Shown here: positions 5,292 to 52,935 of the stretch, piece after piece
Layout of the letters: each line of letters begins with the position of its first letter
How positions within the stretch are numbered: the stretch's first letter is position 1
Source: Ceratodon purpureus
Taxonomy: Eukaryota; Streptophyta; Bryopsida; Pseudoditrichales; Ditrichaceae
DNA length: 64,000 bases
NCBI GenBank assembly: GCA_014871385.1
Contig: CM026422.1
Coordinates: forward strand, 26,148,987-26,212,986
Reading direction: 5' to 3'
Position numbers and translations under genes: made by a program
The notes under the pieces: model-generated
What the model saw: the letters and a program-made list of their open reading frames with translations, nothing else
The model's database searches: none
Told to the model about the DNA's origin: nothing

Positions 5292-6528
5292 AGAAATAAT
5301 TAAAAATGACCATGATATTTGAGGTTCTCAAAATGAACTAAATTCTATTATTTTGAGAATGTTTTACGGTTTTCATGATTATGCATTACCTAAAGCTCTC
5401 TTGATAAAAAAACTAGGGAATCAAAGAACTAAATGTACATCAATAATAATAAATATCGTTGTTTCTAATTAGAAAGTACTAGAGAAGGATTGTAGTATTG
5501 AGTAATGAATCATTCAAAATGAAATGTTATACAAAAACAACAAACTCAACGAAGATAACCTCCATACCTTCAATATATCTTGCATGAACATTGTAATCAA
5601 CCCAAGAAGTTGTCGTAACCTTAGATATGATAATGAAATGAGGTCGCTACTACCACCTCAATAATAATGATTTGACTTTACTCATTACACTATGTTTGTT
5701 CACTGCAACAAAGTCTTATCTACAGACTTTTACATCTCAACTATATAAGTTGTCTTTTCAATACACTTATGCCATTGTTCTCCATTAATAGACCTCATTA
5801 AGCATCCCAAAGCACAAATTGCACACTCAATCTCTTGGGGTCTAGAGGAGCTCGTACTTAAGGCATTGTAGCTACTTTTAGCATTGAGGTAGATTTTGGA
5901 AAAAGGAGAGGAAAGAGAAAGGTGGTTTACTATATGGTGCACATGTGGCATGACTAAGTGAAGAGATAAGCGCTAGCGATAAGGACAAGTTGGTGGTGGC
6001 TAACTCATATGAACACCCTTGAGTGCCACATGGCCTAATGGGAACTTGCAAGTGGCTGGGAATGTCCCTTTACAGTCACTTAAAGATGAGCAAACAAGTA
6101 TAGTAAGTAAAGCGCTTTCAAAGAAGCCTATATCTCACTTCATTCATTCTTTCTTCTAATTTGTGTGCCAGACATATTATAGCAAATGTCTCTCTTCTTC
6201 TTTCAATCTCAATAAATTCGGGGCACACTCACATGAATTGCAGTTGAAAGTTCTTCCTATCCTACGTATTTAGGAGAAGGTCGTGTAAGGTTTTGAGTGT
6301 GAAAGATACACAAGTGCAAATTAAGAGCTTTCAAGGTGTACAAGATCATATTTGAAGGAGTCTTTTGAAGGAGGTCTTTATAAAGTAATTTGTGTGTCAG
6401 GTGCACAATAGCTTATTTGGAGCTTTGCAAGTGCATGTGAGCTTATTTAAAGCTATCTGAAAGGGCAATGCAGCTACATTGGAGTCTAGCTAATGCTCTT
6501 GAAAGTATTGACATTGCAAGAAGATGAG
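5292..6528 (+). repeat. Repeat A: degenerate copia-type LTR (LTR2) with flanking DNA, uninterrupted copy
   Basis: The segment recurs in reverse orientation, in pieces, at 34,570-35,052, 52,936-53,510 and 54,516-54,607. Within it, about 5,833-6,214 aligns along its length with the younger copia LTRs at 14,842 and 34,142 (shared words such as GCATTGTA and GCACATGTGGCATGA), so it is an old relative of that LTR. About 6,215-6,528 resembles the copia leader. The 540 bases before the LTR are AT-rich and also duplicated. This copy is unbroken where its partner carries two insertions, so it preserves both empty sites: ATAA at 5,966-5,969 for the 17.9-kb element, and TTAC at 5,387-5,390 for the TTAA element. 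A small ORF at 5,730-5,951 on the - strand is conserved in the partner only because the repeat is. Confidence 0.8.
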
Positions 6529-33100: not shown

Positions 33101-33341
33101 TGAGCCCTATCACAGACATGGCCTTCTACACACGGCAATTGTACTCCTTGATAGCCTTTGGATCCATCTTGATGCCCTTCTCATCGTCGTCTTCACTTGG
33201 TGGAGGCTTCTCCGTGCCTTCTACAACCTCCCAAAGGTCCATGGACTCCAACACCATCTCCATCTTGAACTTCCAAAGGCTAAAGTTCTCCCCCTTGAAC
33301 TTGTCAATGGTCCTAGCACTCTCATTCTCAAATGTCGCCAT
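30131..33341 (-). pseudogene. Copia gag-pol polyprotein, decayed
   Basis: gag starts at ATG 33,341 (MATFENESARTIDKFKGENFSLW), has a TAG at 33,126-33,128, the UBN2-type gag core, the CCHC knuckle CYNCGKPGHIARHC, and a TAG after KAKK at 32,586. Protease has DSGATKHM near 32,460. The pre-integrase region has VWHRRLGHLN and CEGCVQGKQHRAPF. Integrase has HSDVCGP and FIDDFSRRVW, then a frameshift near 31,770, FRSDNGGDF and NTVAERANRT. A TAG lies at about 31,306. Reverse transcriptase has MDVKTAFLNGDLEEDIYMSQPQGF, LKKSLYGLKQSPRAWY and the catalytic YVDDLIIL, ending at 30,131. Order PR-IN-RT is that of Ty1/copia. At least three stops and two frameshifts are present. Confidence 0.9.
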
Positions 33342-34141
33342 TATGACACTCAATATGCCAAGATCAACCCTTGTAACGTCTCGATGTGCACTATGGCACC
33401 TCTCCACTCACTTTGAGCCCCTTCTAGACTCCAAGGTGTTTCTACACACCTCTCACACTCTCATCAGCCCCTACAAGGCTTTTATACTCATGTAAGCACC
33501 TCCCACTAGCAGATCAGCCCTTACAAGGCCCTAGTGTGTGAGTGCACACTCCAATCAATCAAATTGAGTCCCTTCTAGCTCAAATGTGCAATGGTTCACT
33601 TCAAGCACTCAAGTCCTCTCACAATGAACTCAAATGCAAACCTTTGCACCTCACTCAAGTATACCTCCCCTTTCTTTAATCCTACATGCAAAGATGGCCT
33701 TGAATGACTTCAAAGAGCATCACCGAGACTCCAATGTGCATCTTATGCACCTCAAACACTCAAATCAGCACCTTTTGAGAGCAAGCAAGCACATCCACAA
33801 TGTTTGAACACTTACAAGGTCCAAAAGCTTTGAATGAGCACCTCCACCACTCTTGCAACTCTATGTGCCTCCCCAAATCTCCAACTCAACCCTTGTGCAC
33901 CTCAAAGGCTCCAAATGAGCTCCTTTGCACCTCCAAGGCTCCAAACAAGCACTTGTGCACCTCCAAAGCTCTAAATCAGCCCATGTGCACCTCCAATGCT
34001 CCAAATCAGCCCTTGTGCACGTCCAATGCTCCAAATCAGCCCTTGTGCACCTCACACACACAATGCCTTACAAGACCTCCTCCAAACTACTTAGCAACCA
34101 AAGAACTCTCACTTGCAACTCACATGAGTGGGCCCATAACC

Positions 34142-34569
34142 TATTGATGTTAAAAGAAGAAGAGAGTTGGTTGCTTTAACAAGTGTAGCACACAAAGTAG
34201 TACAAACAATGAATGGAGTGAGATATGAGCTTCTTTCGAAGCTCTTTACTTATAGTACTTGGTTGCACATCTCTAAGGGACTCTCAAAGGACATTCCAAG
34301 CCATTTGCAAGTCCCTTTAGGACACGTGGCACTCATGGCCGCCCCTAAGACTTAGCCACCACCCACTTGTCCTTCCAAGCTTATCATTGATTTGGCTTAG
34401 TCAATGCAAGTGGGCTGGTCCTTATCTCTTCACATACTCATGCCACATGTGCTCCATGTGGTAAATCACCTCACTCCCTTTTCTCTCCTTTTACTTCCCC
34501 CCTTCTAATTCTACCTCATTGCAAACTCTATTTACAATGCCCTAACTACGAGCTACCTAAACTCCAACA
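34142..34569 (-). repeat. Copia LTR, - orientation (5' LTR)
   Basis: A 428-base LTR, TGTTGGAG at 34,569 and CAATA at 34,142, very similar to the LTRs at 14,842-15,268 and 18,172-18,599. The primer-binding site follows at 34,141 downward. Confidence 0.85.
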
Positions 34570-35052
34570 AAAGAAGCTCACTTGCACTTGCAAAGCTCCA
34601 AATAAGCTATTGAGCACCTGACACACAAATAACTTTATAAAGACCTTCTTCAAAAGACTCCTTCAAATATGATCTTGTACACCTTGAAAGCCCTTAATTT
34701 GCACTTGTGTATCTTTCACACTCAAAACCTTACACGACCTCCTCCAAAATACGTAGGATAGGAAGAACTTTCAACTGCAATTCATGTGAGTGTGCCCCGA
34801 ATTTATTGAGATTGAAAGAAGGAGAGAGACATTTGCTATAATATGTCTGGCACACAAATTAGAAGAGAGAATGAATGAAGTGAGATATAGGCTTCTTTGA
34901 AAGCGCTTTACTTACTATACTTGTTTGCTCATCTTTAAGTGACTATAAAGGGACATTCCCAGCCACTTGCAAGTTCCCATTAGGCCATGTGGCACTCAAG
35001 GGTGTTCATATGAGTTAGCCACCGCCAACTTGTCCTTATCGCTAGCGCTTAT
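34570..35052 (-). repeat. Repeat A, second copy, first segment (LTR2 leader and 3' part of LTR2)
   Basis: Reverse complement of about 5,966-6,445. It is cut on the left by the copia LTR at 34,569 and on the right by the 17.9-kb element at 35,053. The last bases before the insertion are GCGCTTAT; the uninterrupted copy continues GCGCTTATCTCTTC, and that CTCTTC reappears at 52,936. Confidence 0.8.
35049..35052 (+). repeat. Target-site duplication TTAT, left
   Basis: TTAT directly before the AACACC terminus, repeated directly after the other terminus at 52,932-52,935. The empty paralogous site (complement at 5,966-5,969) has one copy. Confidence 0.85.
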
Positions 35053-35079
35053 AACACCATATTCGTTATTTTGGGAGAT
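35053..35079 (+). repeat. Left terminal inverted repeat of the 17.9-kb element
   Basis: 27 bases identical to the reverse complement of 52,905-52,931. The next bases differ. TTTTGGGAGAT recurs imperfectly just inside both ends. Confidence 0.9.
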
Positions 35080-35635
35080 ATTCTTGATTTTGGGAAATCA
35101 GCGTGTAGAGAAATGGCGACATTCGTCCCCTCCCATTTACTTCAATCTTGCGGAAATCAATATTGAATCATTAAAAACATCTTAAAGGAACAATGAGGCC
35201 CATGTCATTTAGGTCGAGTGGACCTAAATGCACGAACATACAGGAGAAAACTTAGTAATGTTCATTGATTCATTAAAAACATGTTTAAAGAGAGATGATG
35301 ATTAAGTCATTTAGGTCGATCACACCTAAACGCAATATAAACAAGGAAAAAGAATATACCACGTCCCATGTATTTTTAGTAGTAACTATCCGTTACCTTT
35401 TCTAAACCAAGGTTTCAATAAAAGGCAATGTCCACTCACATAAATTACATTCGGAAATTTGAATAACACAAAAAGTGTGCAAGACAATGAGGCAAAAATA
35501 GCAGAGGAGAAAATTTGACAAACAGATCGATCGTTTTATTCAAAACATAATTACATTGAAATAACACAGAGGACTCTTATAATCGTCTATATTGTCTGCG
35601 CCATTGCTATACAGTACATAGTATCCTCTATATGG
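35080..35635. other. Left subterminal region of the 17.9-kb element
   Basis: Non-coding. Two variant palindromes of the form TTTAGGTCGA...CCTAAA lie at about 35,208 and 35,310. They are diverged relatives of the 21-bp palindrome, with GG in place of GC. The 3' end of the basic-protein gene should lie here. Confidence 0.55.
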
Positions 35636-36353
35636 TTATGGAGTCCCTCTGTAAGCCTCAATTCTTGACTTGACAAATTCCTGTTGGCGCTGACGTGTCC
35701 ACGACATTCCCTCAACCTGCATCATTGGACTATCAAGAAGACGTTGCAACTTCTGCCTACGCCTGTCACCGATGCTTGGCTCTGGCAGAGAGTGGCGACG
35801 GGTACTGGATGGTTTAGAGTGGGAGTCGGCGGACTTCCTTGCCCTGGATCTAGTAGTTGTTGATCGTAGCCTCGGCATCTGCAAAGGGGATAAATTAGCA
35901 TTGGGAAGAGATTTCGGTTTAGGTCGAATCGACCTAAACTGCTGAGTGCAAGTGTAAAGGTCGAACGGACCTTGAATGAGGAGGCCTACATAAGCTAGAA
36001 CTAGACCTAGATGAGAGTATAAGAAGATCAATCATTTTAGGTGGCCTCGAGCTAAAATAAGGACATCCGAATGAAACATCATGAAAGAAACTTACAGAAT
36101 GAAACATCAGAAAGGAATGAAAAGCGGAAACTGAGGAATGAAAACCAACCTTTGCCGGTGGTGGTGACGGCATGTCCTCCACATTGTTATAAAGAGCACG
36201 CTTCGTAGGGGTAGAACTCTGTCGTTTCGAAGATAGAACCTCCAGTACGGTCCGTGGCCACATAGGAGAAGGGGATTTCAGGGTCTTGGGAACGGACAGG
36301 TTAACCGGGCTGTCCACAACCCCTTCGTCGACAGCCATAAATGAATAGTCCAT
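35636..36353 (-). CDS. Small basic Ser/Arg-rich protein, cargo of the 17.9-kb element
   Basis: Two exons on the - strand: 36,353-36,150 (start MDYSFMAVDEGVVDSP, ending PPPAK at an AAG/GTTGGT donor) and 35,878-35,636 (acceptor TTTGCAG, then MPRLRSTTTRSRARKS, ending AYRGTP). Phase is 0 and the protein is 148 residues. The first half is acidic to neutral and Pro-rich; the second is strongly basic with many Arg and Ser, fitting a nuclear or nucleic-acid-binding role, but no domain is recognised. Its intron contains two degenerate palindromes (about 35,921 and 36,038). An in-frame extension upstream of 36,353 to an AG at about 36,460 is possible, so more 5' coding sequence may exist. Confidence 0.6.
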
Positions 36354-36694
36354 CGTCGACTGCGCTGTTGCAACGGATTGCAACAGCAGCCCTCTGCTAC
36401 GTAGAGAGGGCTCGCAGCCATAGGCATAATTCAAAGAATCCACAGAGGCTCGACATGCATTATCCTGCAATACTTAAAGCGAATAGAAAGATACATCCAC
36501 CAATAATTCAGCAATGGTTTAGGGTTCGTCGCAAGGGGCAGAATAGATCAAGAAAGAAATATGAACTTCGTATTACAAAAGGAGTAGTCTGGATACAAAG
36601 ATTACGCAAGTGGTTAAGATGTACAACATACTAATAGCTCCGCGGCAGTTATGAAATGTCTATTAACAAAGTAGAGAACCGAAACCATGCCAAA

Positions 36695-39148
36695 TTATGG
36701 TCTACGACTAATTGCCTCATTAATCTTAGCGTATTGTTCACAGGTAGAACGGTCATCATAATACATTTTCTTCCCGATCGGACGCTCGGCCCTGAATCTA
36801 GCGATTGTCCTCACAAAGTGGTGTAGGTCTACAAGATATGGCAAAAGTTTCGACAACAAGAAACGATCATCTGCGGCATCGGGATTCTGGTTGTTCCAAG
36901 TGGAGAGTAAAAGGACATTGTAAGAATTATTCTGACAGTGCTTGATCGGGCTGTCGTCGATAAAAATGGTGTTGGCTTCGGAATATAGGCCACCAAATTT
37001 ACGAAAGAGACCATCAGACATCGGCTTAAGGAAGATGTCCTTCTGAGTCCCGGGTTCCTTCATATATACCGGACGACCTCGAAAATCTACGCCCATAGGA
37101 ACTCTCTGACAGTCCTCTTGACCTAGAATTCTGAGCGGATAGACAGGACGAATCGGACCGAACAGATAGTCGCAGATCATTTTTGTCGTCGAAGTCTTCA
37201 TCGAACTCCAGACGGTTATGGTTGCGAACGCTGACAACCGACGAAGGAAATCAGCGCAATTGGGCCTGACACAAACAAGCTTGGGGCCCACGACTACTGG
37301 CTTGGACGCTGAGTGGATGCTAAGGTCATGGCTAACGAATGATTTTTCCAGGCCAATTTGGAGTACTGGAGCAGAGTATTCCATTGAGGTCGAGGACAAC
37401 GTTCAACCAACCACTCTGAGGTCTTGTCGGGACAGGACTCAATTCTTCACTAGAACTTACGTCACATCCAGATGCCTCGCGCACCTGGAGAGGAAATACC
37501 GATGACAGATGGACATTACTATATTATACTAGGACGGGGTTATACGAATGATACAATGAGGACTAACGCAAGGCAAGTCATTACCCAAGGAAACAGTGCA
37601 ACGAGATATAATGATAGATGAAATACCTGAGCATCCTCGGCTTGGCCTTCTACAACATCCCGATCCTCCACAGGTCCCATCGACCCTAATGAATTCTGAG
37701 GTTGATCGTTAGGAATGACCTCTACGCACGTTGGCAAGGTCAAAGAACACTGGGCCGTGACATCTAAATCCATATTTGTGCGTCCAGGCTCATCCGCAAT
37801 TTGGGCCATGACAACATCATCCACGATCCGAAGATCTTCCACTTCCTCATTCACTTCGTGACCTGGGCATTGCAAGAGAACTATTGAATCATCAGAGAGT
37901 GATCAATGAAGCTGACATAGAAGGGATTGGTAAAAAGTTGAACGGTTTAGCTCGAGTCGAGCTAAACAGCCCATTTGTATTAATTACAATCGTTTTGGTA
38001 CAAAATGCACATTTCAGTGAACTACTCCGGTATTAACACCTCATCTACAAAATTCCGAGTTCAAAAAATCTAAGTTTGGGAAGGACCTGAAGATGTCTTG
38101 GGAGCATCTCCCTGAGTCTGATTGTGGGAGGGAGAACGGGGTGGGCTGGGACTAGGGTCACGCATGACCTGGTCGGTGCAATGATGGCTTGGCTCAGGCA
38201 CTGATGCGGGACTCGGATCCGACATTGGCGATCTTGCACCACCGGTAGGGGAGCCCAAAATCTCAAGTACTGGCGGAGTAGGTAGGGCGCTACCTATCGG
38301 CTGGACATTGGGCAGAACTGGACCCGCATTCGGGAAGATAGCGGCATTACTGATGCCTTGCAAAGCACCCTGCAGTGCCGCGTGCACGGTCTTCTCTATA
38401 TCCATTTTCTGCTGTGCAATCTGATCTTGTAATGCTTTATTCCTATCATTGGACGCCTGTAATTCTGCGAGAAGAGCTTGAACATCCGGAGAGGGAGCGG
38501 CTCTTCCCAACGGGGATGCTTGCCGCGCTGTAGGGTTGGGCTTCTTCTTCTTCTGTGCCGGCTTTCCAGTACTTCGCGCACCGCCAGTCTTTCTCCCACT
38601 TCCGGATCCCAGCTCCGGTGCAGAACCCGGTCTCTCATCGTCCGTACGTGTAATGTCGACGTCAGGAAAATCGAGTCTTCTCCCCACTCCACCCTCAGAT
38701 GCGGTCTGACTTACCGGATCAGAAGGCGGAGCATCGCTCTCATTGCTAATGTCCGCAGCACTGGAGGAGGGGGTCTGTTCCTCGGTGGGGGCATCCTCCT
38801 CCAGATCAACATCGTCACCCTCCTCCACAGCTCTGCCTTTCCCTTTCCGCACGGCTCTGCCGTATTCCGGAAAGCGTTCCTTATCGACAAAATATGCGTC
38901 GACACTAAAATCGGTTGGGTCCAGAGTTAATCCAAGTGACTGAGCTTCGATCATATGAGACGAGTCACTATCATCCGCGACCACGAAAGACGAGATCGAG
39001 AGCATCTGAAAAAAACAAAGACAAGGTAAACAAGGTTTAGCTCGACTCGAGCTAAAGTGTGGAAGTGTGTGCATACATGGTGCATAAGATCAAAACAGTG
39101 GAACGATTTGACCCGAGCTAAAGTGTGGAAACTTACCGCGGCGGCCAT
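36695..39148 (-). CDS. FCP1-like HAD phosphatase with long disordered N-terminus, cargo of the 17.9-kb element
   Basis: Exons on the - strand: 39,148-39,137 (MAAA), 39,005-38,087, 37,862-37,627, 37,484-37,461, 37,415-37,367 and 37,308-36,695. All introns are GT-AG and phases fit, giving 617 residues. Residues about 5-390 are mostly disordered, with a basic KPAQKKKKPNP stretch (possible nuclear signal) and a coiled coil (VQALLAELQASNDRNKALQ). The C-terminal part is an FCP1/NIF-type HAD domain: VVLDLNGIL (nucleophile Asp406, but Asn408 where most relatives have the second Asp), TVWSS (about 446-449) and FIDDSP (Asp531/532). FCP1-type enzymes dephosphorylate the RNA polymerase II tail. The 38,087/37,862 join is the weakest; without it the first ORF would stop at 38,070 and the phosphatase would be a separate gene. 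Two introns carry the 21-bp palindrome. Confidence 0.65.
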
Positions 39149-39214
39149 GAGGGACTTTGTTTAAGCATAGAGCTGATAAACCGCCCCCCCAGTACTGCAG
39201 AAAGTGTCGAGGAC

Positions 39215-42200
39215 CTACAGGTAGAACTCCATCCTTAACTCGGATGGATACATTGCGTACCTCCTTTCGTTAAACTTCCTATTGTCCGTGTACAGTTTGT
39301 GGTCCGGAGTTGTGTACTTGCTCAGAGGTTCTGGCGTCGACCCATCGTTCTCAAGTACATTATCATCAATGAGAAACAGGAGTTTGACGGGTTCCATCGC
39401 GATTCTGCTTTTCGGGGGGTGTCCGCCAAGTCGCTCGTTAGGAGCGGGTAAATACTCAGAAGGGAATCTTCTACGACCACTCAAGGTGTTTCGCTCCACC
39501 CAAGTGAGCACCTGGGCGAAGTCCTCATCGTCTCCGCAAATGAGAAGCCAGTGCCGAACATCGTTAAATTGGGGCTGCCCATACTCATCGATCATATTGA
39601 AAAACTCCATGAAGAAGGGGTTCTCCAAAGTGTAGTTATGCCTTGTCTTGTAGGTTGGGAGGAACCGGAAGTCGATGATTCCGAATGTGACTGCGTCGCC
39701 CGCCAACCTCCATATATCCGAGGGCCAAGATCCAAAGGAGAGTCGAGGCTCCCTGATAAATGGGAGGAACCACATCTCAGCTGAAGGGCACTGAAATGCA
39801 TGTCGAACCTTCAGGAAGGTTTTGAAGAACTCAACCGCATATGGGGAGAGATCCTTGGCCGACTTGTTGCGGAACTGTGTAGCTCTGGAGTTAGTCGAGT
39901 ACGAGTCTGGAATACCCCAATTAAGCAGAACGTGCTTCGACTCTTTGGAGACATAGTAAGTCTTCTTGAAATGCTTCCAAGCGGGTACATCAAGGCCGTC
40001 TCTCTTGAATAAATGGAGCGTTGGATTAATGTTGTTGAACTCCGCTTGAGCTACAGCCTTACGTTTTCTCCGCTCCGCCCATTCCTTGACCGAGTAGCAG
40101 TCCTCCAATACACTCGTATTCTGCTTGATGGTAACCTTCGGATATGTGTACTTCCGACTTGGCCCAGACTTATGCAGGATGTGCTTACACATCTTCTGGT
40201 GATCTGCCTCTGTCAAGTTCCCGAGCCATTTGAAGAACTCCCTCGGAAGCGTCCCATCCTTGTCCGGAACGAACCCCTTCTTCTCATAGAATTTCTTATG
40301 AGGAGCTTCGGTGTCGGGATCAATGAGTCCACCACATGCCGCAGACGCGATCACCTCCTTCCACAGGTCCCATGTTTCATCACTGGATGTGATGATAAAC
40401 AGCTCATTTGTTAGAGAGATAGTGTTCTTCCCTCCCTTCTTCGCCACCATGGCTTGATGCTTCGCCACATCGATCATAGCGAAGCGCTCCCTGATTGCAT
40501 TCAAAAAGTTCTGCATACGCACAGGAAGAAACCTTAGATGATGTTGTCTCGGAACTACTCTTTAGCTCGACTCGAGCTAAATTGATCGAGATACACCAGA
40601 ATATTGAAAACGAAGAAGATTATCAATATTTAGCTCGACTCGAGCTAAATTGCAGGAAGTTTAGCTCGAGTCAAGCTAAACTGCTAATGTTAATGAATCA
40701 GTGAATTTACGTCGTATGTCTTCGACGCTGGATTACTTTTTGGACCTGTACTCCTGCGGTCGGCAGCACCAGCGGCAGCATTTTTCTTTTGGGGCTTACC
40801 ATACTTCACCCACACTTTTCTAGAGGCAAGTATATTGCTCGCCCAAGTTGGCTTAAAGGGTGGGAGATGGTTCACCCGATTATAGAATGCTGAGATCTTT
40901 CGCAGCTTATCTATATCATGCGTCCAAACGATGTACGCATCCCACCTCCTCAAGTCCCTCAACAACTCCTCACTGGCGTTATCCTCGATGAGAGATTTGG
41001 ACGCCGCCACGCTGTGTTGCCCGTTGATGATGTGGAATTCACAGCCTTCCAGATCCTCTTCTTGTTGAGGTCGTGCCTTTGTGTCTGGCATCAGACACAG
41101 GGTTTGCTTCTGAGCCCTATCCGGCATGTTGACCAAGTAATTCTTCATCTCCTCCATGCCCCGCTTCTCATAGGCACGGATAGTCCATGCGGCTGGTGCG
41201 GGCTTGCACCGCGTCACGTCCACACTGAACTTCTTTGGTTGCCCATTCGTTTTGAAGACGAACTCGTCCTGGCAATCAGTAAAGAAATTCTGGTAAATGC
41301 GATTGGCGTTATCGAAGTCCAGGATCTCTCCTCTCTTGTTTACCTTGGGGAGTTCCCCGAGAACAGAGTTCAAACTTGTTGCCAAGTCCTCCGCAGATAA
41401 GAGCAAGTTCTTCTTGGGCTTTGCCTTGTCAGTTTTCTTCTCGAGGCCTTTCTTCTTCAATGGTGAGAGGGGTGTGGGAGTTGCAGAAGCGCCTCGGCTT
41501 TGGGATGGAACTATTGCTCTCCCCCTACTGCGTCCTGTCTGTTGGCTCCCCATTTGACTCCCGGTTGCTGTCACTCCAGAAACGTCAACATGAGATTTTC
41601 CGAGGTTCTCCTTCACCTTTGCCTCCGTTGCGCGGAGAGCAAGGGTGCAGACAACATTCCTCAGTTTCCACGCTAGGGATTTCGCCGGGAGAGTTCGTCC
41701 ATCCTTTGTTGCCCATTTCCTGTCCAGTACTTCTTGTCTCATCGTGGACACTATCTCGTCGTAAGGTGAATTGGACAGACTTTCCATTAAGGAAATGGAG
41801 TCGAAGAGGTTCTCCGCTACGTCTACTACTATGGAGAAGAGGTATGGATTAGCCCCGATAGATGAGCAGAGGATCTTTATTTGGTCTTTCCCCTTATTGT
41901 CAAACTCGGTGACCTTTGTATTCATGTCGATGACGTGGGGATCATCGACTTCACCCTTGAAAATGGTTGCGAACGTTAGATACGATGTGTGTGCAACCCA
42001 TCGCAGAGTCCAATTTTTGACCTTCGAGGGGTCTTTGAAGGTCCATGCCTCAAATGTGCTTGAGTCATCCCCGTCACCGTCATCTGAATCAGAGATAGGA
42101 ACATGCTTGAAGAAATGTCGTAGCGCCTCAATTACCCTTGCTTTCTCCTCACTGCAAGGAGGACACATTTACCATTAGAGAAATTCGAAGCCATTTAGCT

Positions 42201-42814
42201 CGATTCGAGCTAAATGTTGGTTCTATTAAACATGTAACCGATGGCATCCCAGCAGTTTAGCTTGAGTCGAGCTAAACTGCTTGGGCTTTCAGCATGGGAG
42301 CCTTGCAGTTTAGCTCGACTCGAGCTAAACTGTACAGCTCCAACCATGGGAGCCTTGCAGTTTAGCTCGAGTCGAGCTAAACTATAGAGCTCCCATGCAT
42401 GAATGCCCAAGCAGTTTAGCTCGAGTCGAGCTAAACTGCAAGGCTCCCATGCTCAATGCCCAAGCCATTTAGCTCGAGTCGAGCTAAACGGCTTGGGCAT
42501 TGAGCATGGGAGCCTTGCAGTTTAGCTCGACTCGAGCTAAACTGCTTGGGCTTTCAGCATGGGAGCCCTACAGTTTAGCTCGACTCGAGCTAAACTATAT
42601 GTGATACTTCCAGAAAGTGGAGGAGAGTTGTACCTCCAGTTTAGCTCGAGTCGAGCTAAACTATGGGCTTTTATGATCGAATTTCCGTCAGTTTTATGAA
42701 AAATATATTGCATTATTCTTTGTTTTTGTTGAATTTTACATTTCAGCACTGCAGTCAAGCCTTTTTCATGAGGAGTATATGATATTGGCATTTGGTTTTA
42801 TACCTCTCGGCCAT
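39215..42814 (-). CDS. ParB/DGQHR-like protein with large unknown C-terminal domain, cargo of the 17.9-kb element
   Basis: Coding exons on the - strand: 42,814-42,804 (MAE plus two bases), 42,151-40,711 and 40,510-39,215. Introns are GT-AG and phases match, giving 915 residues with no internal stop. An untranslated first exon probably ends at 43,478 (GGTTTCCAG/GTAAGT) and joins 42,870. The first 200 residues are helical and acidic. A Ser/Lys-rich linker follows, then a domain with FKTNGQPKKFSVDVTRC and, near residues 377-384, EFHIINGQHSVAASKSL. The latter resembles the ParB/Srx and DGQHR motif (I-x-G-x-H). The C-terminal 430 residues (FLPFIREPRLSFGSWPSDIW, HWLLICGDDEDFAQVLTW) match nothing I recognise. 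Intron 2 holds nine palindromes and intron 3 three. Nucleic-acid binding or nucleotide hydrolysis is possible but inferred. Confidence 0.7.
40561..40680. repeat. Array of three 21-bp palindromes in an intron
   Basis: Copies of TTTAGCTCGA-(C/G)-TCGAGCTAAA start at 40,561, about 40,629 and about 40,660 (the last with one change), all within intron 40,511-40,710 of the ParB-like gene. Confidence 0.9.
42194..42660. repeat. Array of nine 21-bp palindromes in an intron
   Basis: Nine copies of the palindrome (TTTAGCTCGA, then G or C, then TCGAGCTAAA), mostly exact, at about 50-base spacing. Spacers reuse the words GCTTGGGC, AGCATGGGAGCC and TTGCAG in both orientations. The array fills intron 2 of the ParB-like gene, just upstream of its main exon. 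Confidence 0.95.
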
Positions 42815-42870
42815 TTCCAGATGAATTAGCTCCTCTTTCTCTCTTGGAAATTATGGCAATCGTGTTTTGC

Positions 42871-44090
42871 CTGCAAAAAGAAATGGTTGCAGAGGATCAG
42901 AGGATGGGATAAATATTAGAAACGTTCAATATTCCTACCGAAAAATACGGGAGAAAAGTACAAATGTAATTGGATTCCTTTTCAAAACAATGGCGCAAAA
43001 ATGAATGCAACGTAGCAAAATCTGTTCTCAACATAACTACAACCTCGACATCAATTAACCTAACGTTCAGTCCTCAAATCATTAGAACCTATCAATTCCG
43101 ACACGCAGCAATGATAATATTGCAGGAATAGTCGTATCAGTTTTCCAGAATTACTGAAATGCATGTTGTTTGACCTACAATTCGAATAAAACAAGAAATT
43201 CAAACTAGACAATCGTAAAAATTACAGTGAATTATAGAACATTCATAGCTTCAATTCAATTCCGCAAATTTAACTCCAACAGAACTTCTGTGCATATTCT
43301 TTGTAAAGACAAGTAGTTGAAATCAACAACACGAATCCATGACAAGAGTTTAAATTAAAAAATCCACATTTCCAACCACAAGTATCGAAAACAATACAGA
43401 GCTTTCGATATTGACAGAACTGTTCTAAAAAAAAACCGCACGCGAACTGATAAAAGTAAACAAAGGTGATGACTTACCTGGAAACCCTGTGAAGAAAACC
43501 CTGCTTCGTAAACCTCCGCAACCTCCGCTTCACTCCGCGATTGTCAATGCAACAAAACTATGAACAACTATGTGTATGCAAATAACCCTAAATTGTGTCC
43601 TACCAAAGGAGCTCAATTCCTTATACCCTTGCTGAAATATGAACACTCGGACACAGAACCCTCAAAGCAGAAACCTTGAACAACGTATACAGGAAATACC
43701 CCAAACCCATCCTCCGCGCACAAACAACCCTAAACCGAAAATAAAAACATAAACCCTAAACACCGCAAACCAATTTCAAGAAACAACCTACACTGAAACA
43801 ACTCAACCACTGTAGACCCAACAATTCTAACAAGTAAATGAACTTCAACTCGCGGGAAACAATCTGCTCATCCTACGCAAACTGCAACAAAGATATTCCG
43901 CGCCTCAGACACAACTTCCGCCACACAGAGAAACCAAGTAGAGAACAGTGGAAAAGTAAAGTGGACAAGGTCGGGGGTGGGGTGCTCGACATCGCCCTCG
44001 CAGGAACCAAAGACTGCGCCGACTTTGAGTTCGGCCTGGTCACCGCGGGGTCCAATGCCCGTCCTCGCGGGTTAATTGTTTTAATTTTTT
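42871..44090 (-). promoter_or_regulatory. 5' intron, leader and promoter region of the ParB-like gene
   Basis: 42,871-43,477 is an AT-rich putative intron. 43,478 upward is a putative untranslated exon (donor GGTTTCCAG/GTAAGT). The flank from about 43,500 to 44,080 is more GC-rich and contains plant-like CCCTAAA words (for example ACAACCCTAAACCG near 43,725). No TATA box was fixed. An 84-codon ORF at 43,838-44,092 on the + strand shows no domain. Confidence 0.4.
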
Positions 44091-46363
44091 AAAATTAAAA
44101 TTCTATGAGATTGAACTACGAAATTAAGTGTTCTTTAGTGAAGGAAAAATAAATAAATGTGTATTGATTGCCATAAATTAAAATTCAATCTTCTAAAAAT
44201 TTAATATTAATTGAATATGAGACGTCTACAAATTTAATTAACATAATAATCCTAATTAACATAATTATCCTTTCAGATATATGAAATTAATATTTGTTCA
44301 AAGACAAATTTAATTTTAATTACACAAGATTAGAGTTTAAATAATAGTTTGTAATTATATTAGGGTTTACTCGAATATGAATACACTATTAGCAGTGAAA
44401 AATAATTTACTATACTCTAATTAGGAACATATTTACGCAAATGTTATCATCATATTATCATTAAAATACATGTTAGTATAATTATGAATTAGAATTCTAT
44501 TCTAAATAAATTCCATGCAATTTTGAAGATTCTGGTAATTCAGAATTCCTATACAAGCATGTACATAGATACTGCAATTTAAAAATTTAATTTTCATTAC
44601 GGAATAATAATTTTAGTTTAATCAGAATCACTAAATGGTAATATCAATATTTGTAAGAATTGCGAGTTAAATATTACTGTCCCTTTTTTCATTTTATTTG
44701 TGTTTACCTGATTCGGGTAGTGAAAAAGTGACAATAACTTTTGTTTAAGAAGTTACTTTAAAGATAGATAGTGCGGTTCACTCTCCATATTGTTAATCCC
44801 ATGTGGTTTGGTAAACCTGCTCTTTCTTACCTTAAGAAGAATTCACCATGATGGCTCCAATAACTCACATGGGATTGGAGAACCATGACCCTTAATGTGC
44901 ACTGTGAATGGGGTTGAGGTTACCAACCCAGTGTGAGTTTCAATGAAACCTAAACAGGATAGGGAACTCGTTTTTTCAGGGTTCTGATGAAATGTATTGG
45001 TAATATTTTACAATGCTTCACAACATGCTTGCATTATATGAAGTTGGTTTAGGATTTTGATTGTATTTGCATTTATATACATTTCTGAATCTACATTAGA
45101 TTTTGATTTTTGATTTTTTTGAATTAACTAAATTTTAATCAATTCAATAATGCTTCTTCCAATTTTGTAATAATAATTTGTAGTTATTTGCCTAAGCATC
45201 AAATTCAAATACACTATTTGCAATGATAATGAATTTCATATACGCAAATTGGAAACATATTTACCTAAATATAATCATCATATTCCTAAAGTACATGTTA
45301 GGAACATAATATAATTATAATATAATAATATAGTATAGTATACTAAAGTACTAATATATTCATTTACAAATTTATTTTTAGTTATTGATTATGAAACGAG
45401 AATAATAATCTATATTCAAGTATACACAAATCTAAAAATGATATACCAATATATTCAAGTATATATACAAAGTACATTGTTAAAAAAAAGTATTAAACTA
45501 TAGAATTCAATTCATTTATTATGGCAAATTCTTTATATTTTTTAAAAGGTTTATGGTTCTTTATATTTATTCATGAGAATCGAATATTTAAACCATGGTA
45601 TGCTTTTTATGATTGGCATTAAATTACAAAAATCGTAATCAATTCATTAACGTTGTATCTTGACTAATATTCTTACAATTTTATTACATTCTAATAAGAA
45701 AGTGGAATGCTTGCTTCATTTGCATAATTTTAAAATACAAAATTCATAATTCATAGATTCAAACGAAATTTACTACTACATTTACTAGTTAGCATGGACA
45801 TATTAGAATACGAAATATACAAATTTGAAAGCATCAGATGAAACACTGGTTTTCGTCTAGAAGAACCCTGTTTTGAAGGCATTCCATTCCAAAAATAGTT
45901 TACAATCCACACGGGGAATACCAGCAGCAAAAGTTACCAAAAGATGAAAGTCATCTCTTTTCACATCTATGGTTTCCAAATATTGTATAATCTAACGGTC
46001 GTGCTAACTACTCCTGAAGTCCCCATTCCATATCTGAGGTGATTAGCAGCAAAAAGTAAAATCGTAGAAGTATATCGAAGATGCCTGCAAGTTCTGGAGC
46101 AAAGAGAAAAACAGGATCAGATGGTATGATGTTTAGGGTCTTAAACGGAAAAGTGCATGTCAAAAGCAAGGACTCATCCTCCTGACAATCAGAACGAACT
46201 CAGCATGAGCCATTAAAATTCTCCGCAATACATACAGCAAACGCAATCTATTATTATGAAAACATCAAACTGAGGACAAGGTTAAGGGTTCCGGGGAGAT
46301 AACAATTCACCTACTCACTCATGTGGTGGGCTCCCCAAATCCACGCTCCCCTCCTCATTAGAA
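44091..46363. other. AT-rich interior of the 17.9-kb element
   Basis: No gene recognised. It contains one arm (about 45,270-45,720) of a large inverted repeat. The sequence changes sharply from GC-rich at 44,080, which may mark a nested insertion or an old junction. Confidence 0.45.
45270..45720 (+). repeat. Arm 1 of AT-rich inverted repeat
   Basis: Reverse complement resembles 47,260-47,710 over several hundred bases (shared AAACCATGGTATGC-type, TTCATGAGAA and CATTGTTAAAAA words). A third, directly repeated relative of arm 2 lies at about 47,740-48,075. Confidence 0.65.
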
Positions 46364-46891
46364 TCAGACCTCCCCAGAGGTGAGGGGAAAATCGATGTTG
46401 GAAGCGGTCATAATCGCCACTTGCTCTAGAGTATGTGCAAGAGTCCAATCCCACTCCGCACCAGGCTGCATTACGCGTGCAATGTAGTTCCATAGGGGAA
46501 TCTCTACGCCGCGACCACGGGCGCGTTCCACTGCCATAAACCACGGACGAAGCTCCTCCACTCCTTGTGGCCAAACAACCGGCTGCCACTCATCCTCATT
46601 AGAATCAGCCATGGAGAAGCCCTCGCTGGAGGTGAGGGAAAAATCGATGTTGGAAGCGTTCATAATCTCCACTTGCTCTAGACCATGTGCAATAGTCCAA
46701 TCCCACTCCACACCAGGCTCCATTTGGCGTGCAATGAGGTTCCACGGGGGAATCTCTACGTCGCGACCACGGGCGCGTTCCACCGCCATAAACCACGGAC
46801 GAAGCTCCTCCACTCCTTGTGGAGAAACAACCGGCTCCCACTCGTCTGGCGGGTAACTTGACACCCTAAAACCACCGCCCGACCTCCTCAT
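46364..46891 (-). CDS. Unknown protein made of two tandem repeats of about 80 residues
   Basis: ATG at 46,891 (MRRSGGGFRVSS), stop at 46,364, 175 residues. Two repeats share EW(E/Q)PVV, PQGVEELRPWFMAVERARGR, VEIP.WN.IAR, EWDWT.AH.LEQV.IM.ASNIDF and LTS. The start was chosen because the first repeat follows soon after it; the frame is open further upstream. The end of repeat 2 may be frameshifted, since another frame continues SDSNEEGSVD as after repeat 1. It lies between the arms of an AT-rich inverted repeat. No known domain; the tryptophan and RPWF pattern may suggest a small folded unit. Probably a real protein given the repeat conservation, but it could be remnant. Confidence 0.5.
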   Translation of the reverse strand: MRRSGGGFRVSSYPPDEWEPVVSPQGVEELRPWFMAVERARGRDVEIPPWNLIARQMEPGVEWDWTIAHGLEQVEIMNASNIDFSLTSSEGFSMADSNEDEWQPVVWPQGVEELRPWFMAVERARGRGVEIPLWNYIARVMQPGAEWDWTLAHTLEQVAIMTASNIDFPLTSGEV

Positions 46892-47259
46892 CACAGCAAA
46901 TGAACTACAAGTAGATGAAACAAAAGGGAAACTAAGAATGCAATTACTGTTTCGTCGCCCAAAGGAACTTATGCTTATGAAGCGGCATTGGGGGAAGCCG
47001 AATGTTCCAGAGTAACAAAGGGGACTTTGACCAGACTCGGTAACGGGACTTTGACCGATGTGGGCTTTCAAAAGTCCGGATTTACTTAAATGTGTCATTT
47101 TAATTTATTATTAAAGAATTGATTAATGGGATTGTATGCTTAGACAAGCATCTAGAGCCTTTCCCGATATTATATATTAATACTACAATTATAATTATGA
47201 TCATTGGTTTAATACGTTTCATTTGAATTCCTAATTTATGAGTTTTTTTAAAAAAATGA

Positions 47260-48075
47260 ACGAACCAAACTTTCCACTTTCTTATTAGAATGTAATAAAA
47301 TTGTACAAATAGAAGTCAAGGTAGAACATTAATGAATTAATTAAGGTTTGTGTAATTTCCATGCCTATCATACAAGGCATACCATGGTTTAAATATTCGC
47401 TTCTCATGAATAAATATAAAAAACCATCAACCTTTTAAAAAATATAAAGAATTTGCCATAATAAATGAATTGATTTCTATAATTTAATACTTCTATTTTT
47501 AACAATGTACTTCGTATATATACTTGAATATATTTGTATATCATTTTTAGATTTGTATATACTTGAATATAGATTATCATTCTCGTATTATAATCAACAA
47601 TTAAATATAAAATTGTAAATGAATATATTAGAGCCTTGGTATACTATACTATATTATTATATTATAATTTAATTATAATACTATTATGTACTTTAAGATT
47701 ATTAGGCTTACATTTAGGTCAACGTACTTTCACCCCATGCCAATCATACAAGGCATACCATGGTTTAAATCTTTGCGTCTCATGATTAAATATTAAAAAT
47801 TCAATCTTCTAAAAAACGTATATAATTTGCCATGAGAAATGAATTAAATTCTATAATCTAATACTATTATTTTTAACAATGTATTTCGTATATACTTGAA
47901 TATACTTGTATATCATTTTAAGATTTGTATACATTAGATTTTAGTTAATTATTCTCGTACTATTCTTAACTGGACATTAAATTGTTAATGAATATATTAG
48001 TACCTACTTGTAAATGAATATATAATTATATTATACATATTATAATCCTAACATGTATATTAAAAATATACATGT
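47260..48075 (-). repeat. Arm 2 of AT-rich inverted repeat plus a direct copy
   Basis: 47,260-47,710 is the inverted partner of 45,270-45,720. 47,740-48,075 repeats arm 2 in the same orientation (CATACAAGGCATACCATGG near 47,370 and near 47,745). Confidence 0.65.
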
Positions 48076-48420
48076 TAAGATGTAGAGTTCCAGAAACGAA
48101 AGAACAAATCTACACCATTCACGGCGTAAAGAACACATTATGAAATAAATAGAGACATAAATAAAAGTACATGAATATATATACATGATAATTATATCTA
48201 ACTAAATTTGTAGAATAAATAAATAATTCTAAATTTGATTTCATATAACATATATAATAATGAAATTGAGCAAAAATACATATTTAGTAAATGGAGGTAT
48301 GAATATTTGCAACGATATACTTCCCTGTATCAATCTGACTCACGAAATTCAAATAGGTTCAAACAATTTTCGATTTAATTTTATTCCATGTACGACATAT
48401 TTAATGTCCCTAGAAATGCC

Positions 48421-48512
48421 TTAACCCTAAACCCTAAATCCTTAACCCTGGACCTAAGACCCTAAACCCTTAACCCTGAACCCTATACCCTAAACCCTGA
48501 ACCCTGATAGAG
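48421..48512. repeat. Degenerate telomere-like (CCCTAAA) tract
   Basis: A run of CCCTAAACCCTAAA, CCTTAACCCTGAACCC and similar units over about 90 bases, matching the Arabidopsis-type plant telomere repeat with many changes. It lies inside the 17.9-kb element, so it is not a chromosome end. Such motifs also occur in plant promoters (telo-boxes), and the transposase 5' region begins shortly after. Confidence 0.7.
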
Positions 48513-49548
48513 GAAGAAAAGTTCGCGGCCAAAAGTCAACACTCTGTCTGGCGCTATAGGGACTTCCAACCCATCCCATTTGATTTAATGCACCAAATAT
48601 TTCGCATCTGCATCTATCTAAAGGGCCGAGAAGTATGGAAAGTGGTAATTCCCGCGCATTCTCACACCCCGAAATGTGGAGGGACGAATGGTCATGCATG
48701 ATTCCCGCCTATTTTCAAAACTCAAGCGGCATGAAAACGGTCACACGTTAGAGAATGACCTCTGGAATCGTCCCCGCTTGAAGTCTTTTCTCTACTCACT
48801 TGCTTCTCTCGCTTGTAGGAGCTCTCGGCGCTCACTTGGAGGTGGTTGTTTTCTGGGCGGAAGCTGTATTGCGCCGTTTCTCTTGTACGTCTTCTCTTTA
48901 GTTCTCTCCGATCATCCGTACACTTCATTGATTTCTGCTTGTTGTATGCTTTCCATTGATTCAAGTCATGGTGTATTTGCAGTGTCTCTCTTTACTTCTT
49001 ACAGACGTTTTAGAGCGGACACCGTAAGCGTACTCTGAGTCTGCAACTCAAAATTCCGAAGATGGAAGCACCTATTAAAGCGCCGCTTTTTGCGGACGGC
49101 AGTTTAGCTCGACTCGAGCTAAACTGCTGCATCCAAAGAGCATCATGAGTTTAGCTCGACTCGAGCTAAACATCTGCATCCAAAGGGCAACATGAGTTTA
49201 GCTCGAGTCGAGCTAAACTTCTGCACCCAAAGGGCAGCAGAAGTTTAGCTCGACTCGAGTTAAACTCATGTTGCCCTTTGGGTGCAGAAGTTTAGCCCGA
49301 CTCGAGCTAAACATCTGTATCCAAAGGGCAACATGAGTTTAGCTCGAGTCGAGCTAAACTTCTGCATCTAAAGGGCAGTAGCAGTTTAGCTCGACTCGAG
49401 CTAAACTCATGCTTCCCATAGTCTAGGAACAGTTTAGCTCGAATCGAGCTAAACTGCGCCTGGGATAAGTTCTCAAATTTAGAGATTGATTCTCTTTAAG
49501 GAGTATAATATGTTCTCACAAAATTGGGTCTGTTGCATTTCAGGTACA
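48513..49548 (+). promoter_or_regulatory. Promoter, leader and 5' intron of the element's transposase gene
   Basis: A CT-rich leader lies around 48,780-49,020. A putative donor (GGACACC/GTAAGC near 49,023) and acceptor (GCATTTCAG at 49,543) would define an intron of about 520 bases in the 5' UTR. That intron carries the eight-copy palindrome array. The start codon at 49,549 is five bases after the acceptor. Confidence 0.5.
49103..49453. repeat. Array of eight 21-bp palindromes in the transposase 5' intron
   Basis: Eight copies of the palindrome at about 47-base spacing, a few with single changes (for example CGAGTTAAA near 49,257, GAATCGAG near 49,441). Spacers reuse CATGTTGCCCTTTGG and TCTGCATCCAAAGGGCA in both orientations. 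Position relative to the start codon mirrors the array in the ParB-like gene. Confidence 0.95.
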
Positions 49549-52387
49549 ATGGACTATGTCTCAGATGACGAGGTACCCGTTGAAGTGCCCGTAAACCCAG
49601 ACCTTCCAGACTTCGTGGTTGTACCCTCGAGACAATAGCAGAACAAGACTGTAACAATATATAGTGACGACAATATCCCGTTAGCAGAGGGTTTGATCCG
49701 GAACCCACGGTCCAGCTTGGTATCTGACACGGTTGGTCCCCTTGGTGATTCCGTTGTCGTCGTCCAGGTATCACGTTCTTTGGTCGAAGAAGAGTCAGAG
49801 GATGATTGGAGGTACTCCTTCAAAACGTGGCCTATCAGCCACGTCTATCTGGATGGAGTTAGCCTAGAGCACCATAGTCAACGTGATGTGTATAACCATT
49901 GGCTTGCGGAGCGTAACCGATCCCTGGGAGATCGTACCCGATCGTATGATAACTCCTCTAGGAATACCCCCCCACCTATATCACGTCACGCTGAGTTTCT
50001 GATGACCCAGCCATCTATCAACTCTATAGCGGCAAACACGTGCTGCGCTCACCTATGCGTCCAACACTATCCCAGAGATAAAATCTCTAGTCTTCGGTCG
50101 CGTATGTACGACAAGACCACAGTGCAGTTCCGTAACCACATAAAACTCGACGTGCATAGACAGATTCACAAGAATTCAGCGGGGAGGAGTGTAGTGACTC
50201 TGGAGGGCATAGATGTTTGCCCCTTCGCCTGGATGAAGATTATGGGAGTGAGCTCCAGTACATTCTATAGAAATGCCCAGTATGCTGCTGCTGGTTTCGA
50301 GGCTCAATTTCACGGTAATACTGGTTTACGTAAACCTCGAAATCACACAGTAGTAGCAACTGCCGTCCTAGGGGCCATCCTTGACAGGCATGCCGACCAC
50401 ATGCCCCACAAGAGTCGTGTTTTGCCTTCAGGGGAGACAGTTGTAGCTAAAGTTCTGCCTTCCAGTTTCAAATGGAGGGAACAGATTCCCATCCTCGATG
50501 AGCATTTAGCGGACTGCGGATTGCCTCCTATGTCCGCTTCTAACTTGAGCAAGATCAGGAGGCTTAGCTATCCAGAATATTACGCCAAACGGGCAGGAGA
50601 CAACTTCGCTCGTTGCTCAAAATGTGATGAGTTCCAGTCCCAGAAGAAGTTGACGGTTACAGGATCTCAGGCGTCCCTGTTGTGGTCTAAGAAAATGAGG
50701 CTGCACAATGACTCTGCAATGGCGCATAGGGACTTGTACTACCTAAATCGATTCAGGTCGAAGGCTACTCCGCATGAAGTTCTTACAATTATGCATGACA
50801 AGATGGACCACTCGAAGACGGCGTCGCCGGCCTTATCCCACAAGGTCAAACACTTAGACGGTCTCATGAAGCTTCCTCTCCCTGTCACGGGAATGCTTGC
50901 TCATGGGCATGTGGACCAACGTTACGCCCATTATGGCCTTGACATTTACTCACACGACGCTAATTACACGGTTGGATCGTTTGCGAAGCTCCTTCGGGAC
51001 CTTGAGTCACCCCCTAAATCCACCTCTAGGGAACTCTTTCAAGAGAATCCTTCCCACCCATTGTATGCCGCGCTTTTGCATGGTTCAGAGATGTGTTTGG
51101 ATCCTCTTGGCCCTCCTCCTGAGGTTCCTGTTGCTGCTAAACCCTTGCCTCCCATTCTTAACGTCCAAATGGAGTGACGCTGTCAGTGATAACAAGAATA
51201 GGTTTGTATTTTCATTCTGGTCCCTATTAGTCGCGAAGCGGGTGTTTCGCGAAGTGTACGTGAATTTCATGCTGGTCGGCCATACTCATGACGATATTGA
51301 TGCCCTTTTCGGACGATGGAGCATGGCTTTGCGGAGGGAGGACTTCCCCACAGTACCTCTCCTCATGAAGTCCTTCATGAAACATGAAGCAGTACCAACA
51401 ATTCCGCATTTTATTCAGGAGGTCCCAGATTTCAAGAAATTCATCGCGGAGTGGATGCTTGATGGCGACGATACGTTAATGGGTCACACTAAAGCTCATC
51501 AGTTCAAATTCTATGTAGATTCTTCAGGATGCCCAGTCATGAAGTATAAAATCTTCTGTCCCGACGACGACTGGTTGCCAAAAGAAGATGGTTGTGGCAT
51601 CAAGTTGTGGAAGGAGGATTCAGAAGGTCGATCTTTATGGCCCCGTGGTGTTCCTGGTGCCGTGGCGCCTCGCGAGATGCGGCACCTGCCTGATGTGATT
51701 AAGGGCTTGTCGGGTTTTGTAGATCATTGGGAGAGGCTATCTTCGGATTCAGTCGAGTCCAGAAGAATCTATGAGCCACTCTCATACTATTGGAACGATG
51801 TTAAAGAGGCTCTTTCCATCCCCTTTGATGCTGTCCCCGCCTTGGAGCATGGTTTTTGGCCATCCATGCGGCTTGCTCACTCCGTCGAAGACGAGTTTCA
51901 GGAAGATGGAACTTTGCGCGAGGAGTTCGCAGAGGATGATCACTTTGTTGGTCACAAACGAGATCGCCCTGGACCGTCGTTCCGTGTTGCGCGAGACCTT
52001 TTTGCAGGGTACTTCTTGGCGCTTCGACCCTGCGATGAAGACGATCGTCCTTTCTGGCTTGCGAGGGCCTTGACTGACCCTAATTCGAACCCTGACCTCC
52101 CGAACACGCTCCAAGTAGAGTTCTACCGCCCAATTTCCCGAGATGAAAATGTTTTGAAATTCTATACCGGCTGGGATGTGGATGGGAGACTTCGTTGGAC
52201 TGTTGAGAAGGATGTACCCGAGTCGTGGCAGAGTACTGATGCAGTCATAACAGCTTGGAAATCCAAAGTTAAAAAAAATGTCAACGACCGGGGCGTTGGC
52301 AAGGATCCAACGCTGAAGATCCCACTGAAACAACTGGACATTATAAAGGCCTCCTTGGAGAGATTTGTGTCTCCGGATTCTGAATAA
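49549..52387 (+). pseudogene. Transposase of the 17.9-kb element (GHTHDDID / DUF7869-like), broken
   Basis: The frame starts MDYVSDDEVPVEV at 49,549 and is interrupted by a TAG at 49,636-49,638. It then runs through RNPRSSLVSDT, a Cys cluster (CCAHLCVQHYP), FAWMKIMGVSSSTFYRN and FARCSKCDEF to LAHGHVDQRYAHYG and ILNVQM. At 51,172-51,177 it hits a TGA. The next frame resumes at once with SDAVSDNKNRFVFSFW, FMLVGHTHDDIDALFGR (about residue 577) and continues to 52,387, ending SPDSE. The break falls in the conserved segment where relatives have QMDN before ENKNR, so a single-base loss is the simplest reading. Total about 945 codons. I place it with the DUF7869-type transposase-like proteins by the GHTH(E/D)DID motif; DDE catalysis is inferred. 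Confidence 0.75.
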
Positions 52388-52904
52388 ACATGTAGCTTTG
52401 AAGTTGGTGGTCTTGAAGTTCTGAATTTAGTCAGATCGCTTGTATTCGTTTGAAGACGACTGAACTGAATACCGTTCGTCCCTTCTGTTTTCAAGACAAA
52501 GGTAGATGTTTAGCTCGAGTCGACCTAATGAGTTATAGCGTATTAGTTCTAGCGTGTTTATGTTTTGAATACTAGCAAATTACATATATTTTGTTGGATT
52601 CAACATTTAAGGAGTGTTGACCTAATTTGTATTTCCACACATATATATAATATAGGATTTCCCAGCATATCCGTTGTGTCCATTTCTTGTTATTTGTTTG
52701 ATGTTCATTTAGAGTGGTTCGACCTACCTTGTATTTTTTCTAGTATTTCTAGTAAAACACTACCTTCTTTCATTTTCCATTAGTACTGTGTGATCATGTC
52801 CCAAATTAATGGAAATTGCTTATAAGCTTTTCCTTGCCAAGTATGGGACCATTGTGCCCATTTTAACTCGACCTGACCTAATGCATTATTTTGGGAGATG
52901 ATAA
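52388..52904. other. Right subterminal region of the 17.9-kb element
   Basis: 3' flank of the transposase, with diverged palindromes at about 52,508 (TTTAGCTCGAGTCGACCTAA) and 52,861 (TTTTAACTCGACC). AT-rich, no other gene. Just inside the right terminus the word TTTTGGGAGATGATAAATCT and its complement form a small hairpin. Confidence 0.5.
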
Positions 52905-52931
52905 ATCTCCCAAAATAACGAATATGGTGTT
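52905..52931 (-). repeat. Right terminal inverted repeat of the 17.9-kb element
   Basis: Reverse complement identical to 35,053-35,079 over 27 bases. Followed by TTAT (52,932-52,935), the right copy of the target duplication. Confidence 0.9.
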
Positions 52932-52935
52932 TTAT

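Follow-up and report, generated by a model that had tools for sequence, protein, structure and literature searches.

Plant DNA transposons with terminal inverted repeats (TIRs) usually carry one to three genes; the VANDAL elements are Mutator-like, and a superfamily named Lanisha was reportedly proposed by Maumus, McDaniel and Carey in Repbase Reports in 2020. Here we describe an element of the moss Ceratodon purpureus that is found at positions 35053–52931 of a window of 64,000 nucleotides (the whole stretch of DNA analysed, from contig CM026422.1 of assembly GCA_014871385.1) and that we compare with Lanisha, VANDAL and Sola. According to the passages available from PMC10741241, Sola elements have a DDD transposase, 4-bp target-site duplications, variable termini and TIRs of at least 11 bp, are mostly 2–9 kb long with some exceeding 15 kb, and are present in the moss Physcomitrella; the corresponding part of PMC3627910 describes a Sola2 transposase of 888 residues with AT-rich 4-bp duplications. 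Lanisha is presented as EnSpm-like in the excerpt of PMC12730594, where the CMCT group that includes it is characterized by the motifs C(2)C and H(3–4)H between the second D and the last E. The VANDAL elements of Arabidopsis, known for the VANC protein, carry in their non-coding parts dense arrays of short motifs that are family specific and differ between families, as described in the available section of PMC5735166.

The element of the window, which defines family F1, is a real and complete transposon and one of many copies in the genome. Its terminal repeats are identical at 27 of 27 bases, the termini read AA..TT, and TTAT stands on both sides. When the two flanks are joined with one TTAT, they align to the reverse complement of an uninterrupted paralogous target in the same window, which has a single TTAT, with 98.3% identity over 1063 columns (17 mismatches and 1 gap). 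The boundaries that the sequence-only reading had set to the base, and the empty site that it had located, are thus both borne out. By eye, the ends are asymmetric just inside the repeats, with the inner half of the TIR recurring as a direct repeat inside one end and as an inverted repeat inside the other.

The same reading had let its case depend on further copies with the same ends and on the two ends belonging to one element. In the searched genome (362.5 Mb, 151 contigs), for which the terminus searches gave total counts, and positions only among the matches listed, the 13-base terminus occurs 506 times, against 5 for a reversed-pattern control, and the 27-base terminus with up to 3 mismatches occurs 392 times, against 0 for its reversed control, so the ends are not due to chance. 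Inverted pairs only a few kilobases apart were absent among the terminus matches listed, and therefore no short form resembling a miniature inverted-repeat transposable element was seen there. Among 30 end loci (L009–L038), 22 could be joined into 11 pairs; the remaining 8, whose partners were not among the fetched loci, were left unused. Perfect 4-bp duplications flank all 11 pairs, with 10 different sequences, and none of the pairs matches at 2, 3, 5, 6 or 8 bp; deliberately mismatched pairs agree at 4 bp in 2 of 110 cases. All 11 pairs consist of one end of each subterminal type, which argues against misjoined ends and, together with the empty site, confirms a complete long TIR transposon with a 4-bp duplication. 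Two more full copies (L039+L040 and L041+L042), aligned in halves, are collinear with the window copy, with 94.4–96.8% identity in the long blocks and 84–92% in the middle blocks; a middle section at about 43.6–45.2 kb aligns poorly or not at all between the full copies.

The transposase gene matches the domain DUF7869 (PF25273) at 2.2e-28 for the second piece in the window copy and at 1.3e-42 in an intact copy, the only match in a Pfam scan with E up to 5; a literature search on DUF7869 found no paper. In the window copy, an early in-frame stop and, near 51.17 kb, a frameshift interrupt the frame. The window copy is therefore probably non-autonomous; intact copies exist elsewhere. The element that the sequence-only reading had called complete is therefore complete by its ends, with a broken transposase frame, and the non-transposase genes, which that reading had rightly placed on a single strand (the minus strand), are accompanied by a transposase gene on the plus strand. 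Genome-wide, all 48 transposase copies scored out of 1780 candidates cover residues 1–945 at 98–100% identity, 35 of them stop-free and 13 with a stop. Three acidic blocks, HDKMD, (L/M)DN..DNKN and VGHTH(D/E)DID, are kept across the three families described here and are read as a D-D-D triad of putative catalytic residues. A search of the PDB with the transposase returned only two integrin sequences (0.086 and 0.17), which were taken as chance matches.

Two diverged families extend this picture. A genome search for DUF7869, in which 150 of 1400 candidates were scored, revealed open frames including some of 678, 942, 966, 980 and 1072 residues; the same search was positive in 0 of 14 control genomes. 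Family F2 was read in a 21.8-kb copy (C6:70472784-70494570) that has the terminus AACACCATATTCATT, with one mismatch at the left end, the duplication CTAG at both ends of this one copy, and a transposase 49% identical to that of F1. It carries homologues of ORF4 (30%, 8e-56), ORF5 (28–37%, 2e-42 and 2e-36) and the NIF-type phosphatase (41.5%, 5e-40) in the order of F1; the small repeat protein gave no BLAST match in F2. Family F3, read in a 15.8-kb copy on contig C9, has the terminus AAGGG(A/G)TATTTA, and one copy carries CCTA as its duplication on either side. The F3 transposase is split over two overlapping frames, with an identity of 34.6% over residues 323–862 and of 27–34% before, and three other frames of F3 match PF03031 (2.5e-13, 3.8e-9 and 2.3e-5), one of them also being a BLAST match to the F1 phosphatase (22.7%, 3e-5). 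A GQH protein at the place of ORF5 has no BLAST match; its identity in a multiple alignment is 23%. The small repeat protein also has a homologue in F3 (53–55% over 64 residues), placed on the opposite side of the transposase. Dozens of DUF7869 hits with the 678-residue frame share an identical score of 134.7 bits, which suggests a recent burst of F3.

The genes of F1 were compared between copies by the ratio of nonsynonymous to synonymous differences (pN/pS), with off-frame ranges that omit comparisons without a silent change. The ratio is 0.16–0.49 in the open frame of the transposase (0.71–5.35 in two off-frames), 0.14–0.42 in that of ORF5 (off-frames 0.92–2.14) and 0.20–0.24 in that of ORF4 (off-frames 0.91–2.06); presumed non-coding stretches, taken in six frames, gave 0.55–1.24 for the long ones and 0.42–1.30 for a short one with few changes. 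These values point to clear selection on the transposase, ORF4 and ORF5 and to suggestive selection on the NIF-type phosphatase, and no clear selection appears on ORF3 and the small repeat protein from pN/pS between copies. For the small repeat protein, the ratio is 0.56–1.00, and one fetched copy is short by about one repeat. An inverted repeat of about 480 bp and 88% identity, at 45260–45735 and 47246–47722 within the element, flanks the gene of this protein. Out of 612 ORF4 candidates in the genome, 85 were scored, 46 of them stop-free and 39 with a stop; many stop-bearing copies have a frame of 481 residues, so that some of the stops fall within the last 23 residues of the query, a part of unsure coding status. 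Positions 48676–49038, first taken as non-coding, have a pN/pS of 0.23–0.32, pooled at 0.27 in the open frame and at least 0.97 in the other five, with few changes, and because the ratio is low in a single frame only, this stretch may be coding. Three other stretches (35937–36092, 36099–36470 and 37543–37902) gave 0.34–1.79, and we claim no gene there. A ParB identity of ORF5 was considered and set aside, as it comes from a GQH motif noted by eye, with no profile above the cut-off and, for the F3 piece, no match in the PDB; the best weak profile matches reach 0.023 in NCBIfam and, with the F3 piece, 0.065 in Pfam, and a literature search on moss transposons and ParB found no paper.

Each family has its own palindrome of 17–21 bp. 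The F1 palindrome, TTTAGCTCGASTCGAGCTAAA, is present at 24, 27 and 25 sites in the three copies (up to 2 mismatches) and at 0 sites elsewhere in the window, and its exact form occurs at 2154 sites in the genome, with 0 for the control; among 50 distinct sites listed, one (C1:15616582) stands apart from all the listed 13- and 27-base ends. The F2 palindrome, TTTAGCTCACWGTGAGCTAAA, has 439 exact sites in the genome (control 0) and 36 in the fetched copy (up to 2 mismatches), and the 17-bp F3 palindrome, GTCGGC-N5-GCCGAC, has 32 loose matches inside the element and 0 in 4168 bases outside. In F1, F2 and F3, the largest array lies upstream of ORF5, whose first ATG is 25, 161 and 208 bp away from the closest unit, respectively (all distances being counted to the ATGs of the frames, as putative starts). 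The transposase is likewise preceded by a second group, at 95–99, 237 and 21 bp. Single palindromes stand 44 bp before the first ORF4 ATG in F1 and F3 and 57 bp before one NIF frame of F3.

Table 1. Features of the F1 element and of its empty site, in positions of the window.
Feature	Position	Strand	Remarks
Complete transposon, family F1	35053..52931	.	17,879 bp; 27-bp perfect TIRs, TTAT duplication, empty site, two collinear copies
Left target-site duplication, TTAT	35049..35052	+	
Right target-site duplication, TTAT	52932..52935	+	
Left TIR	35053..35079	+	
Right TIR	52905..52931	-	An inverted copy of its inner part follows inward and may form a hairpin (by eye)
Paralogous empty site	5386..6448	-	Single TTAT at 5966-5969; aligned to the joined flanks
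NIF / FCP1-like HAD phosphatase exon (PF03031)	36695..37402	-	4e-11 here; 1.3e-13 in another copy
Palindrome between ORF3 and phosphatase exon	37946..37966	.	
ORF3, acidic low-complexity frame	38070..39005	-	Coding status unsure; pN/pS 0.27-0.65
Palindrome at ORF3	39036..39056	.	Second ATG of ORF3 lies 30 bp downstream; its first ATG precedes the palindrome
ORF4	39215..40516	-	About 434 residues in window copy; both other copies have a longer frame, 504 residues from stop to stop
Three palindromes between ORF5 and ORF4	40561..40680	.	First ATG of ORF4 lies 44 bp downstream of the closest one
ORF5	40690..42168	-	492 residues; INGQHS motif (ParB-like by eye only); pN/pS 0.14-0.42; F2 homologue
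Nine 21-bp palindromes TTTAGCTCGANTCGAGCTAAA	42194..42660	.	Array directly upstream of ORF5
Small protein	46364..47104	-	252-bp (84-residue) internal duplication; homologue in F3
Possible small further gene	48649..49038	+	129-residue frame upstream of transposase; coding-like substitution pattern
Array of eight palindromes	49103..49453	.	Upstream of transposase
Transposase gene, DUF7869 (PF25273)	49549..52387	+	Broken in window copy; single 945-residue frame in both other fetched copies

Taken as a whole, the best explanation, to which we give about even credence, is that the element is an 18-kb Sola-like cut-and-paste transposon with a retained gene set and an element-encoded regulator that acts on the palindromes. 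The 945-residue DDD transposase would bind the 27-bp ends and insert the element through a staggered cut that leaves the 4-bp duplication, its catalytic role being predicted from the acidic blocks. At least the NIF-type phosphatase, ORF4 and ORF5 would form a retained set and not recent passengers, because they are clearly present in F2, whose transposase is so diverged, and in part in F3. By analogy with VANC for VANDAL, the regulator would switch on the genes of the element or guard them from silencing. Dense family-specific motif arrays in non-coding parts are common to VANDAL and to the present families, whereas the VANDAL motifs measure 8–9 bp and the palindromes 17–21 bp, and no VANC homologue was seen here. 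More tentatively, the three families may represent a deep lineage of giant plant transposons with a retained kit (transposase, ORF4, the GQH-motif ORF5, the HAD phosphatase and perhaps an acidic protein) and a family-specific palindromic operator that diverges together with its regulator and that forms arrays ahead of ORF5 and of the transposase, with single copies ahead of other genes.

Several points weigh against these proposals. The regulator would be an element-encoded DNA-binding protein acting on the family-specific palindromes at promoters, with ORF5 and the transposase as candidates, and ORF5 gave no match over the curated cut-offs of Pfam and NCBIfam and no PADLOC hit. The distances from palindrome to ATG span 21 to more than 500 bp, those outside the nearest cases ranging from 142 to more than 500 bp; one NIF frame of F3 has no ATG, and some F3 palindromes lie inside the transposase frames. 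As for the gene set, the match to ORF4 in F3 is weak (0.004), and BLAST gave no homologue of ORF3 in either F2 or F3, where acidic frames do stand at the same place; the pN/pS of ORF3 (0.27–0.65, off-frames 0.92–1.29) partly overlaps the 0.55–1.24 of the non-coding controls. The pN/pS of the NIF exon, 0.29–0.36 (off-frames 0.45–2.21, one NIF comparison having no silent change), is based on 4 silent and 4–5 other changes. Finally, the Sola placement is a matter of fit, drawn from the duplication length, the D-D-D reading and the published description.

The sequence-only reading had put no plant superfamily name to the termini and the 4-bp duplication. The superfamily placement can be weighed against several alternatives. 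A Sola-like element is the most likely, judging from the 4-bp duplication, the putative DDD pattern and the recorded lengths above 15 kb: the 4-bp duplication is seen in all 11 F1 pairs and in one copy each of F2 and F3, and the 27-bp TIR and the length of 17.9 kb fall within the ranges given for Sola, which is likewise known from a moss. The element would add a gene set shared between families and family-specific palindrome arrays, which are absent from the accounts of Sola in the available parts of PMC10741241 and PMC3627910. That the element is instead Lanisha, so that its superfamily already has a name, appears unlikely to us. Carey and Maumus are also among the authors of the C. purpureus genome paper, as cited in the available part of PMC8000587, so Lanisha, likewise a cut-and-paste superfamily, may come from this moss; the 4-bp duplication also lies within the 2–5 bp range of the CMCT group in the excerpt of PMC12730594. 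Compared by that description, however, the reported EnSpm-like C and H motifs are missing here: given our D-D-D assignment, the approximately 40 residues between the second and third D contain no C-x2-C, DUF7869 is the sole Pfam match of the transposase, and the termini are AA..TT, as against CA..TG in most of the group. Among the best-ranked papers, judged by title and the start of the abstract, none describes the element. Ginger, KDZ, Academ, piggyBac and CACTA elements share with it the nature of DNA transposons with terminal repeats and differ in that the transposase matched DUF7869 alone in the Pfam scan; a Gypsy-type integrase as in Ginger was not found by that scan.

The nature of the additional genes and of the palindromes admits other explanations as well. 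The former could be chance captures from the host that play no part in transposition, since NIF-type phosphatases are common host proteins, 39 of the 85 scored ORF4 copies have stops, and ORF3 and the small repeat protein lack clear selection; a passenger origin of this kind is improbable, given that copies of ORF4 and ORF5 differ from one another with a low pN/pS and that F2 carries the same set in an unchanged order. An integrated DNA virus or Polinton-like element, to which the length, the compact gene spacing and the several genes on one strand could point, is highly improbable: capsid, packaging ATPase and polymerase B are absent from the Pfam and PHROG matches of the frames scanned, a subset of all frames, and viral contigs searched with the transposase, ORF5, ORF4 and the palindrome held no relative. 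A protein search of plasmids likewise gave no match. A role of the palindromes in transposase binding or replication, instead of regulation, seems doubtful to us. They do occur singly near both ends (at 35208 and 52509 in F1 and at 401, 20443 and 20605 in F2), and some in F3 lie within frames, but the dense arrays are internal, upstream of ORF5 and the transposase and away from the ends.

The distribution of ORF4 copies is uneven. Contig C6 comprises 110,524,308 bases, 30.5% of the genome, and C. purpureus is described, in the available part of PMC8000587, as having a genome of 360 Mb with U and V chromosomes of more than 100 Mb each, about 30%; we infer that C6 is the sex chromosome. When the 85 scored ORF4 copies are split at rank 50, a point chosen after viewing the list, 33 of the 35 lower-scoring copies lie on C6, compared with 21 of the 50 higher-scoring ones (Fisher p 3e-7), the latter share showing no significant difference from that of C6 in the genome (p 0.09). 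The excess of lower-scoring copies fits a better survival of old copies through retention on a non-recombining sex chromosome. Outside the moss assembly, a contig titled as a Synechococcales metagenome-assembled genome (L051, CADCWO010000071.1) holds a 963-residue transposase frame, 68% identical in the best segment, with five F1-type palindromes beside it (up to 3 mismatches, as against none in 200 shuffles of the letters), and is probably misbinned plant DNA.

Elsewhere in the window, positions 14841–19400 and 30487–34569 contain several repeated stretches, mostly inverted, of about 86–94% identity, and 31635–32465 matches Pol_BBD and gag_pre-integrs of retrotransposon Pol. A perfect tandem array of a 21-bp unit, in 5.7 copies, lies at 26116–26235, and 7774–8676 gave a weak match (0.0033, below the cut-off) to DUF4216, a domain found in CACTA-type elements.

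With these elements, DUF7869 would gain a function, namely that of a transposase whose elements leave 4-bp duplications. With its dozens of stop-free transposase frames, its family-specific operator arrays and its four or more genes kept over deep divergence, such a lineage would give a second testable case of sequence-specific self-regulation of a transposon, one in which no homology to VANC is seen here. If true, the lineage would hold a self-contained regulon with which to evade host silencing; elements of this class are otherwise centred on the transposase.

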